51,199 nucleotides of DNA from Caldifarciminota bacterium (GTDB taxonomy: Bacteria; Hydrothermota; Tepidihabitantia; SM23-42): assembly GCA_014859085.1 (NCBI GenBank), contig JACUUY010000003.1, positions 1-51,199 of the forward strand. Reading direction: 5' to 3'. The notes beneath the pieces were generated by a model. The model had not been told where the DNA came from, ran no database searches, and saw only the letters and a list, made by a program, of their open reading frames with translations. Positions within the stretch are counted from its first letter, which is position 1. Each line of letters starts with the position of its first letter. Both the position numbers and the translations under genes were made by a program. Below are positions 2-3,589 of this stretch, one piece after another.

Positions 2-1192
2 GGAATGAAGGAAAGATTCCTCAGGCGGATCAAGGGTGAAGAAAAAATAGATTACCCCCACCCGAACCTGAAACAAACATTGGGCGACACCCTCGGCATA
101 CCCGTGTATCAGGAACAGATACTGCAGATCGCCCATGACTTCGCCCGTTTTTCCCTGAGCGACGGTGACATGCTGCGCCGGGCAATGACCAAGGCGCGCA
201 GCCCGGAGAACATGAAAGAGATCGAAGACCTGTTCTTTGCCAAGGCGGGTAACATGGGATACGACACGCAGGAGATCACACCGGTCTGGGATCGCATAAG
301 AGCATTCTCTTCTTTCGGTTTCAACAAAGCGCACAGCATAACCTATGCGACGCTCGCCTACCTGTCCGCCTACCAGAAGTATTATGAACCCATGAAATTC
401 TTCTGCCAGGTGATAAACAACAAGGGCGGCTACTATCCCACCATCGCCTATATCAACGAGGCGCGCCGGAGGGGGATCAGGATAATGGCGCCGGATGTCA
501 GCAAAAGCGCGGCGCGGTTCATGATCCAGGATTCATCGCTCCTTACCGGCCTGGATGAGATAAGGGAACTCTCGGCGGAAACGATCAGCCGGATCATGAG
601 AATGCGGCCGTTTGAGGACGCGCGGGATTTCTTCTACCGCGTCCGCCCCTCGATCGAAGAAGGCATCTCGCTCATAAAATCGGGCAGCCTGGACCCGTTC
701 AACCATACCTGGCCCGAACTGTATTTCCTGCTGCTCGATTCCAAGATCTTAAAAGAAACCATTCCCCACTTTGGCCGAAAAGTACCGAAATTGAGTGACT
801 TCAGCGACCGAGTTAAAGTATTGGGCCAACTGGGGACAATAGAGTTCATACCGGCATGCCATGTCCTGCAGGTATTCTACGGTCAGCGCCAGACACACAT
901 ATCAAGCCTGCATGACAAATCGAGAGCGCAACTGATCAGCAGCCTCATCACCCGCCGTACGATCCGTACCAGGAACAACAGATTAATGAGTTTTCTGACC
1001 ATGGACGATGAAACCGGTATCCTGGAAGTCGTAATATTCCCGGACAAATATGATCCGGGCCGGGTCGGCCCGGTAATGGAGATAACCGGCACCATGCAGG
1101 AAGATTCATTGATCGCAGACTACTACAAAAACCTGACTACCAGCAGAACAATAATTGCAGACCAGCGTACGGCATTTGGAGGACTTCGGTAG
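2..1192 (+). CDS. dnaE: DNA polymerase III alpha subunit (DnaE-type), C-terminal part, 5' end outside window
   Basis: Replicative or repair DNA polymerase subunit of the C-family. The reading frame is open from the window edge, so only about the last 396 residues are present. The visible start resembles the family segment 'YPHPNLK..LGDTLGIPVYQEQ', followed by 'DGDMLRRAMTKAR' and 'FGFNKAHSITYATLAY', which match the fingers region of DnaE proteins. A helix-hairpin-helix-like part follows, then a C-terminal OB-like segment ('DDETGILEVVIFP'). No long tail follows the OB-like part, which fits short DnaE/DnaE2-like forms as well as DnaE1; I cannot tell which without the N-terminus. Its last 56 bp overlap the convergent gene ending at 1137. 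Confidence 0.9.
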   Translation, partial: GMKERFLRRIKGEEKIDYPHPNLKQTLGDTLGIPVYQEQILQIAHDFARFSLSDGDMLRRAMTKARSPENMKEIEDLFFAKAGNMGYDTQEITPVWDRIRAFSSFGFNKAHSITYATLAYLSAYQKYYEPMKFFCQVINNKGGYYPTIAYINEARRRGIRIMAPDVSKSAARFMIQDSSLLTGLDEIRELSAETISRIMRMRPFEDARDFFYRVRPSIEEGISLIKSGSLDPFNHTWPELYFLLLDSKILKETIPHFGRKVPKLSDFSDRVKVLGQLGTIEFIPACHVLQVFYGQRQTHISSLHDKSRAQLISSLITRRTIRTRNNRLMSFLTMDDETGILEVVIFPDKYDPGRVGPVMEITGTMQEDSLIADYYKNLTTSRTIIADQRTAFGGLR

Positions 1193-1766
1193 CCGCATCG
1201 TCAGTACCATGAATTGCGGTCGGTAATGGAACATTACCGGTTAGACGTACAGCTACATGCCGGCGTTCATACGTAATACCCAACCCCGGGACAAATACCA
1301 CATTCCCTCCCTTACTTCCGGCAAGGTCATAGAACAAGTAGCCCGCTTTAATTGGCGCAAAAACACCAAAGTCATTGCGGAAGTAATAACCAAGAGCGCA
1401 TGTTCCGGTGAAACGCATTCCTGCGTACTCGTGTTCACTGTTGAAGAATATTTCAGTATCGGCGTAGCCGCTCGAGAACAAATGCGTACTTCTGGTTACC
1501 GACTTGCCAAGCCCGAGGTTAGCACCGAAGATATCGAGGCCGGAAAGCCCGGCACCGGCGCGCAGTTCGAGCCCTGACCTGAGGATTCCGCGGGCAATCG
1601 TGACATTGGCCGGTATGTGGACTCCGATTTCGTTCTTACCCTGCTCGAGCACCTTGCCGGTCTGGAACGTATACGGGTAAAACATCTTTGCCTGCCATGA
1701 GCACCGCACCGTGATGAATGAACACAGTAGTACGATCAGCGTGCAACATTTGGTTATGATCTTCAT
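1137..1766 (-). CDS. Small secreted envelope protein, probably outer-membrane associated
   Basis: Unrecognised 209-residue protein. The N-terminus is a signal peptide (MKIITKCC followed by a hydrophobic stretch) ending near 'TVRCS', a possible lipobox-type cysteine. The rest is rich in glycine and alternating hydrophobic residues ('GLELRAGAGLSGLDIFGANLGLG', 'YAGLQLLFCW'), as in a small beta-barrel; the last residue is aromatic. The ATG at 1766 is chosen over an upstream GTG at 1793 because a -10 element ends 7 nt before it and the GTG lies inside the promoter. The 3' end runs 56 bp into the dnaE-type gene on the other strand. Function unknown. Confidence 0.65.
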   Translation of the reverse strand: MKIITKCCTLIVLLCSFITVRCSWQAKMFYPYTFQTGKVLEQGKNEIGVHIPANVTIARGILRSGLELRAGAGLSGLDIFGANLGLGKSVTRSTHLFSSGYADTEIFFNSEHEYAGMRFTGTCALGYYFRNDFGVFAPIKAGYLFYDLAGSKGGNVVFVPGLGITYERRHVAVRLTGNVPLPTAIHGTDDAATEVLQMPYAGLQLLFCW

Positions 1767-1773
1767 GGAGAAT

Positions 1774-1801
1774 AATATACGCGTGCAGTGCACCTTGTCA
1801 A
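1774..1801 (-). promoter_or_regulatory. Promoter for the 1766 gene, leaderless arrangement
   Basis: On the minus strand TTGACA (1796-1801), a 16-bp spacer and TATATT (1774-1779) lie 7 nt before the ATG at 1766. There is no room for a Shine-Dalgarno site between the expected +1 and the start codon. Confidence 0.7.
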
Positions 1802-1896: not shown

Positions 1897-1924
1897 TTGA
1901 CTCAAGACGCTCCAAGCATATAAT
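1897..1924 (+). promoter_or_regulatory. Promoter upstream of leader ORF and EamA gene
   Basis: TTGACT (1897-1902), 16-bp spacer, TATAAT (1919-1924). The next ATG is at 1934, nine bases beyond the -10 element, so the transcript would begin within a few bases of that ATG. Confidence 0.75.
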
Positions 1925-1933
1925 CGTGTCCCT

Positions 1934-2005
1934 ATGAAATACGGACGCCGTACCGAAGAACCAGAAAAATACCGCGCATCAGCAGTAATAAGGAGAACGC
2001 ATTAG
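1934..2005 (+). CDS. Putative 23-codon leader peptide coupled to the EamA gene
   Basis: Short ORF starting at the ATG directly downstream of the promoter at 1897-1924. It encodes a basic peptide (starts MKYGRRTEEPEK, ends VIRRTH) and stops with TAG at 2003-2005. The stop overlaps the proposed ATT start of the transporter at 2001, and the AAGGAG at 1990-1995 lies inside this ORF. The layout suggests translational coupling or a leader peptide. It could also be a chance ORF, or the old 5' end of a gene broken by a frameshift; the peptide does not resemble an EamA N-terminus. Confidence 0.4.
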   Translation: MKYGRRTEEPEKYRASAVIRRTH

Positions 2006-2894
2006 TAGATTCGTAGGAGAGTTTGCGGCACTGGGCACGGCGCTGTGCTGGTCATTCGGCTCAATGTTCTTTACCGTGGCTTCCCGCCGGCTCGGCCACA
2101 ATGTCGTAAACCGCGTCCGGCTGGCAGTAGCGCTGATCCTATTGCTGCTTGCGCATCTGATCTCAACCGGCACTATCGTGCCCATGGATGTGATCGGTTA
2201 TCACTGGCTCTGGTTTGGGTTGTCCGGGATCGTCGGCTTTGCCCTGGGCGACATGCTGCTCTTCAAGGCCTTTGTAATGCTCGGTACCAGGCTGGCTATG
2301 CTGCTGATGGCCCTCGTGCCGGTCTTCAGCACGCTGATCGCCTGGATCTTCCTCTATGAATTGCTTGAAATGACCGATATCCTGGCCATGTCGGTCGTGA
2401 TCGCGGGGATTGTCTGGGTCGTCACCGGCCACAGGAACACCAGCCCGAATGGCAAACATGACACGATCGGTATCCTCTGCGGTATCGGCGGCGCAGCGGG
2501 CCAGGCCATCGGGTTGATCCTGTCAAAGAAAGGGCTGGCCGATGGTTATTCTGCTCTTTCCGGGAATATCATCCGGGTGTTCACGGCGACAAGCGTCCTA
2601 TGGGTGATCGCGCTCATCCGGGGACGCGTGCCCTATACGGTAAGAATGCTCCAGGACCGCCCGGGCAGCAGGGCGCTTCTTGCCGGCAGTATCTGCGGTC
2701 CGTTCCTGGGCGTCTGGCTGTCGCTCGTTGCGGTTCAGAATACGTATGTGGGCATTGCCTCGACACTGATGGCGCTGCCGCCGGTCTTTTTGATCCCCTT
2801 GTCCCACTGGATATTCAAGGAACGGATAAGTCTCGCCGCGATCATCGGCACGCTGGTGGCGATTGCCGGCGTCGCGCTGATATTCCTGCTGTAA
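2001..2894 (+). CDS. EamA-family (DMT superfamily) transporter with likely ATT start
   Basis: Inner-membrane permease of the drug/metabolite transporter superfamily; about 297 residues and ten hydrophobic segments in two EamA repeats. The frame is open only from 1992 (stop TAA at 1989-1991). The first in-frame ATG, at 2064, would cut off most of the first membrane helix ('GEFAALGTALCWSFGSMFF'). No in-frame ATG, GTG or TTG lies between 1992 and 2064. An AAGGAG at 1990-1995 sits five bases before an in-frame ATT at 2001, so I place the start there. The substrate cannot be told from sequence. It is convergent with the hydrogenase operon and separated from it by a strong hairpin. Confidence 0.8.
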   Translation: MSRFVGEFAALGTALCWSFGSMFFTVASRRLGHNVVNRVRLAVALILLLLAHLISTGTIVPMDVIGYHWLWFGLSGIVGFALGDMLLFKAFVMLGTRLAMLLMALVPVFSTLIAWIFLYELLEMTDILAMSVVIAGIVWVVTGHRNTSPNGKHDTIGILCGIGGAAGQAIGLILSKKGLADGYSALSGNIIRVFTATSVLWVIALIRGRVPYTVRMLQDRPGSRALLAGSICGPFLGVWLSLVAVQNTYVGIASTLMALPPVFLIPLSHWIFKERISLAAIIGTLVAIAGVALIFLL

Positions 2895-2932
2895 AACGCA
2901 ACAATATATAGCAGGTTGGTTTGTTGCGTTTT
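2893..2932. terminator. Bidirectional terminator between EamA gene and hydrogenase operon
   Basis: Perfect 12-bp inverted repeat: AAAACGCAACAA at 2893-2904 and its complement at 2921-2932, with a 16-nt loop. Each strand ends its stem in four T residues, as expected for an intrinsic terminator serving convergent genes. Part of the loop plus stem (2911-2925) recurs exactly at 50663-50677, again inside a hairpin. Confidence 0.8.
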
Positions 2933-2947
2933 GCCGCTTTCTGCTTT

Positions 2948-2982
2948 CTGTCTACTGTCTACTACCTACTACCTACTGCTGT
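2948..2982. repeat. Degenerate tandem heptamer array
   Basis: Five consecutive 7-bp units: CTGTCTA twice, CTACCTA twice, then CTGCTGT. The array sits one base past the stop codon of the last gene of the hydrogenase operon. It is too short and without spacers, so it is not a CRISPR. Confidence 0.75.
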
Positions 2983-2983
2983 A

Positions 2984-3589
2984 TCAGTATCCCCAGATCT
3001 CGTTCAGATAGACCGATCTGCGGCATGCGGGGCACAAGTACCTCAAGTGCTCACTGCGGTAGGGCGGCGTGTCCGCGCTCTTCGGGATCGACTCTTCACC
3101 GTATTCCCGGGATAGCACAAGGAAGAGGTTGGGGTTAGCATAGGCAAGCTCGCCGACTCTCCGGGCGATCCACAAGAGATGCGCCCGGGTCGTAATGACC
3201 TCACCGCACCGCTCGCAGCAGATCAACTCGTCCTCGATCGACTCCTCGTAGCCGTCCCGCGTTATCTGGGCCAGGTCGTATTCCTGGGTGTGCCTGATAC
3301 CTTCTTTTGTCGTGCAGTACGCAACACATTGCCCGCAATAGATACACCGCTCCGGATGGTATATCTCCTTGCGGACGCCCCTCGTGAGATCATCCTGCTG
3401 CTCGCGCGCGTTTGCCGGGCACACTTCAACACATGCACCGCAGAGCACGCACTTTTCGGCATCGAACTCTATCTTACCCCGGAAGCGCGGTGCGGCCGGC
3501 GAAGGTTTGAAGGGAAATTTCGACGTGTACGGGCCAAGGACAATCGCCCGGATCGCTTCGCCCAGTTCTCTCAATTTTGGCTTACGCAT
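2984..3589 (-). CDS. NuoI/HycF/MbhN-like ferredoxin subunit of membrane-bound hydrogenase
   Basis: Peripheral iron-sulfur subunit that would pass electrons to the NuoB-like subunit. It has 201 residues. Two [4Fe-4S] motifs are visible: CVLCGACVEVCP near residue 47 and CIYCGQCVAYC near residue 82; the second lacks the usual proline. Beyond them lies an extra cysteine-rich part with CCERC and CPAC pairs, like a zinc ribbon or rubredoxin-type site, that short MbhN/EchF proteins lack. It is the last gene of the operon and starts two bases after the mrpG stop, with GGAGG upstream. Confidence 0.88.
   Translation of the reverse strand: MRKPKLRELGEAIRAIVLGPYTSKFPFKPSPAAPRFRGKIEFDAEKCVLCGACVEVCPANAREQQDDLTRGVRKEIYHPERCIYCGQCVAYCTTKEGIRHTQEYDLAQITRDGYEESIEDELICCERCGEVITTRAHLLWIARRVGELAYANPNLFLVLSREYGEESIPKSADTPPYRSEHLRYLCPACRRSVYLNEIWGY

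Follow-up and report, generated by a model that had tools for sequence, protein, structure and literature searches.

The infC gene of E. coli, through which IF3 controls its own production, starts at AUU, and this codon lies behind a Shine-Dalgarno (SD) sequence. The same arrangement is found for the ATT described here at the head of an EamA transporter gene, although no feedback logic ties a transporter to IF3. Single AUU-start genes, as the EamA gene may be, have also been encountered outside infC; Binns and Masters are said to have reported such a start for E. coli pcnB in 2002. Borrelia pncA is described as starting at AUU after having been mis-annotated as truncated (PMC13398362), and the AUU of Staphylococcus aureus cvfC1 is stated to have afforded ~10% of the AUG output in reporters (PMC13009471). 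IF3 is presented as discriminating against non-canonical starts such as AUU; the GTC of Streptomyces sigR, likewise a non-canonical start outside infC, is described as repressed by IF3, demonstrated by mutation, and conserved (PMC5472188). As far as these accounts go, the starts of pcnB, pncA, and cvfC1 are experimentally supported and that of cvfC1 is also conserved, whereas the EamA ATT is known from sequence alone and is not conserved, two respects in which it also differs from the start of sigR.

The window, a stretch of 51,199 nucleotides, is contig C111 of the draft genome of an uncultured WOR-3-type bacterium (G000), which comprises 2.57 Mb divided among 252 contigs, with a completeness of 97.4% and a contamination of 1.5%. 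Members of its genus, SM23_42 among them, are labeled candidate division WOR-3 in public records. The plasmid collection searched contained no match. The features of the locus are collected in Table 1. The divergent neighbor is preceded by a promoter-like site matching the consensus at 11 of 12 positions, and its end overlaps the frame at positions 5 to 1192 by 56 nucleotides.

Table 1. Features at the start of the EamA gene and in its immediate surroundings
Feature	Positions	Strand	Remarks
Divergent neighbor ORF, 218 codons, no Pfam family	1137..1793	-	Own promoter-like site at 1801-1774
Promoter-like element TTGACT-16-TATAAT	1897..1924	+	11/12 sigma-70 consensus positions
Leader ORF MKYGRRTEEPEKYRASAVIRRTH, 23 codons	1934..2005	+	No SD; 9 nt between -10 hexamer and ATG
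Shine-Dalgarno AAGGAG	1990..1995	+	5 nt upstream of ATT; predicted unpaired
ATT at the EamA family start-codon column	2001..2003	+	Alignment with orthologues
EamA (DMT superfamily) transporter	2001..2894	+	297 aa including the start residue

The transporter frame is open from position 1992 to its end and matches PF00892 over two EamA repeats (E value of 2e-32; 112.7 bits against a curated cutoff of 28.2). Its codons from 1992 to 2063 include no ATG, GTG, or TTG, the first being the ATG at 2064, within the first helix. This frame scan bore out the claim of the earlier note that the ATT preceded by AAGGAG is the only initiation-like site before that helix. The spacing of 5 nucleotides falls within the range most common among SD-bearing starts (5 to 7 nucleotides) in the sampled part of the genome, and both SD and ATT lie in a 17-nucleotide stretch (1988 to 2004) predicted to be unpaired; RNA structure around the start did not exceed that of shuffled sequences (z = -0.90). 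Other ways of entering the frame were considered and discarded. Starting at ATG 2064 would cost the protein its conserved segment GEFAALGTALCW along with part of the first helix. The in-frame codons CTG 2031, CTG 2043, and GTA 2013 lack an SD and lie at or beyond the conserved segment. If ribosomes shifted by +1 from the leader ORF to the transporter frame, the protein would gain an N-terminal extension that is absent in close relatives, and the site CAT TAG would appear to offer no good re-pairing.

Orthologues were sought in 61 genomes. Six of the seven other members of the genus possess one (68 to 75% identity), the seventh (G007) giving only weak hits. Opposite the ATT, the alignment shows GTG in G005, G002, G003, and G004, ATG in G006 and G001, and TTG in the nearest sister-genus orthologue (G010). 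In all eight proteins compared, 296 residues follow the start, and loci L033 to L036 carry start sequences identical to those of G005, G002, G006, and G001. Since the six same-genus orthologues start at this column with ordinary codons, the position of the EamA start is well supported. We extended the comparison to 110 EamA loci, 30 from whole genomes and 80 named ones; the N terminus could be aligned in 108 (two had no N-terminal match), and removal of 12 duplicates left 96 distinct loci. Among these, in which the named loci are the best 80 of 157, 94 have an ATG, GTG, or TTG no more than 10 codons away from the column, in 40 cases exactly on it, and the only exceptions are the gene of the window and L104. 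As judged from the alignment, the location of the ATT exactly on the family start column is beyond chance.

Two observations on more distant loci are recorded here. At L104 (~2910-3060), from a distant FCB group bacterium, the 19 open codons of the EamA orthologue include no standard start, and a 21-codon ORF ends beside its N terminus, resembling the arrangement in the window; a non-canonical start or an indel may account for this. At L025 and L116 (G017), the orthologue is split between two frames and carries a TAG in frame.

As a positive control for AUU usage, infC reads AAGGAGGTG-NNA-ATT-AAG in each of the eight genus genomes (L032 and L121 to L127). All of them use ATT as the isoleucine codon, the SD comprises 9 bases, and the nearest standard codon, a GTG, belongs to the SD itself. 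Sequence conservation thus points to AUU as the start very probably used for infC in the genus. The conserved infC ATT makes AUU initiation very likely available to the lineage, but the EamA ATT occurs in one genome only (0/6 genus orthologues versus 8/8 for the infC control). The sampled genes provide no support for a general AUU habit in this genome: ATT is not enriched behind an SD before the first standard start (3/75 versus 101/3,933 for all codons; 596 kb, 330 genes), nor did it stand out in a screen of SD-preceded non-standard codons preceding the first standard start. The three SD-preceded ATT cases are those of the EamA gene, of an apparently frameshifted gene, and of infC, where the codon lies upstream of the start. 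For the EamA gene itself, an ATT at the family start position, the SD, the lack of a usable standard start, the intact frame, and the infC precedent in the genus together support AUU as the initiation codon, as the earlier note had proposed.

A nonstandard start might also be expected of a gene that has lost its start and become a young pseudogene. The upstream EamA paralogue found in relatives (see below) is missing, and the protein of the window has 17 private amino acid changes compared to 2 to 6 in each of six relatives, but its genome sits on an unpaired and longer branch. Against decay, the frame contains no stops, and comparison with the two nearest orthologues gave a dN of ~0.17 and a dS of 1.15 to 1.38 (dN/dS of ~0.12 and 0.15); the SD and the promoter-like site are also still present. 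Judged from these substitution ratios, the frame is alive and under purifying selection, and we regard the pseudogene explanation as extremely improbable.

The restriction of the ATT to the genome of the window reflects either a recent change of start codon or a one-base error. In the latter case, an error of sequencing or consensus, or a mixture of strains, in the draft metagenome assembly would have turned an ordinary start at 2001 into ATT, and a single third-position change separates ATT from ATG. The assembly is fragmented, as indicated above, and a gene at L158 (~1980) of the same assembly looks frameshifted, by error or decay. On the other side, known genomes contain a few genuine non-canonical starts, errors are expected to hit a start codon only rarely, and there is no direct sign of one at this base. 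The frequency of start-destroying errors was gauged from reciprocal best ORF pairs between the sampled parts of G000 and G005. The two members share a standard start column in 134 of 163 pairs. The other 29 include the EamA gene, and 12 of the remaining 28, read by eye, revealed no second lost start; some proved to be shadow ORFs, and the others possessed a usable start farther inside the frame or displaced by about one codon. Lost starts are thus uncommon in the assembly, so that an error becomes less probable without being eliminated as an explanation. A second assembly of the same species was looked for, and none was found. Overall, we consider an error unlikely, though to be taken seriously. 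As to the gene at L158, its coding sequence, which presumably corresponds to the end of a flavodiiron protein, continues over ~1980-2450 from another upstream frame.

The surroundings of the gene differ between the window and its relatives. In G005, G002, G006, G001, G010, and G012, an EamA-like ORF of 283 to 294 codons, so called from its sequence and from neighbor alignment rather than from Pfam, ends 1 to 9 nucleotides before the EamA start. Such tandem pairs are present at L003, L004, L005, L006, L009, and L013; at L003 and L004, the pair sits behind what we take to be the end of a dnaE-like gene. As in the window, the downstream orthologous gene begins beside an upstream stop, but this stop belongs to a whole transporter in these WOR-3 genomes and to an unrelated 23-codon ORF in the window, where the first gene of the pair is missing. 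One search of G000 with the G005 paralogue as the query did not detect a copy elsewhere, a result that shows little, being without a positive control.

We confirmed the existence of the 23-codon leader ORF described in the earlier note, including the overlap of its TAG (2003-2005) with the ATT by one base. The same note suggested that this could be a regulated start using termination-reinitiation. In a fuller form of this proposal, ribosomes would load on the leaderless or nearly leaderless ORF, end at the TAG, and start again at the AUU that overlaps it, with IF3 in control. The stop/start overlap is in keeping with this proposal, as is the near-consensus promoter ending 9 nucleotides upstream of the leader ATG, and the full-length paralogue ending just before the start in several relatives raises the possibility that coupling is ancestral. 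The proposal also draws on a strong pattern in the genus: a TATAAT-like hexamer lies 4 to 9 nucleotides before the first ATG in 30/173 genes without an SD versus 1/84 genes with one in G000 (window plus L128 to L187), and in 43/244 versus 0/180 in G005 (L188 to L227). The spacing peaks at 5 to 6 nucleotides, and a previous count on a different gene set gave a concordant result. Leaderless mRNAs would be expected to leave this signature. The reasoning follows that of PMC5397173, which cautions that an AT bias does not by itself constitute proof. A limited literature search found no papers joining leaderless, Shine-Dalgarno, and WOR-3. With its ATG at the edge of the hexamer range, the leader ORF may have its first codon at the 5′ end or only a few bases from it, and an SD might not be required for its translation. 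The signature thus makes translation of the leader more plausible and adds nothing for a regulatory use.

Several results speak against such a handover. The leader ORF is conserved among relatives neither in place nor in sequence and has no counterpart there; it also lacks a Pfam match, 23 residues offering little to match. In G003, an unrelated 16-codon ORF overlaps the GTG, but the sister G004 has no such ORF. The region from 1794 to 2000 was compared with the upstream DNA of seven relatives, and similarity did not exceed that of shuffles in any of the seven. In dinucleotide shuffles, 182/2,000 sequences contained a comparable ORF by a strict definition (ATG only, 23 codons or more, stop no more than 3 nucleotides from the start) and 581/2,000 by a loose one (any standard start, at least 15 codons, stop within 10 nucleotides). 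Since 9 to 29% of shuffled upstream sequences do as well, the occurrence of the leader ORF, overlap included, is within chance. The leader has no SD, and its distance of 9 nucleotides from the hexamer is at the edge of a range that peaks at 5 to 6. Furthermore, coupling is not needed to expose the initiation site, since the SD and ATT are predicted to be unpaired. The comparison with relatives, which the earlier note had called for, found neither the ATT nor the leader ORF to be kept; the note had also held that ordinary codons at the same place in relatives would count against its reading, and these are what the relatives have. Its identification of AUU as the initiation position is supported, whereas regulated termination-reinitiation is not. 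We consider the handover improbable. A more specific version, in which a minimal near-leaderless leader and AUU replaced the ancestral coupling of the paralogue pair in this lineage, is very unlikely; if true, it would make output of the transporter dependent on both leaderless initiation and IF3. The leader ORF is most likely incidental.

The reading that we favor is probably correct: the EamA gene would have a real but weak, SD-driven AUU start, its own promoter, and a short 5′ region, and it would be passively sensitive to IF3, with an incidental leader. An ancestral GTG or ATG at the start column would have become ATT in the lineage of the window. The gene would be transcribed from its own promoter, and the six-base SD, its favorable spacing, and the unstructured stretch would direct initiation at ATT 2001. 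By analogy with the published reporter, initiation is expected to be weak, about one-tenth of that at AUG, and to rise when IF3 is limiting; such sensitivity need not be a selected regulatory device.

The ATT is either a minor peculiarity or a sequencing error of one base, and the leader frame in front of it is probably incidental. We know of no experimental translation data for the WOR-3-type group. The analysis also brought out a clear signature of leaderless mRNAs and a conserved, probable infC AUU start in a WOR-3 genus. If the base is real, the EamA gene would be one more AUU-initiated gene outside infC, and start prediction restricted to ATG, GTG, and TTG would trim 21 residues from such a protein.
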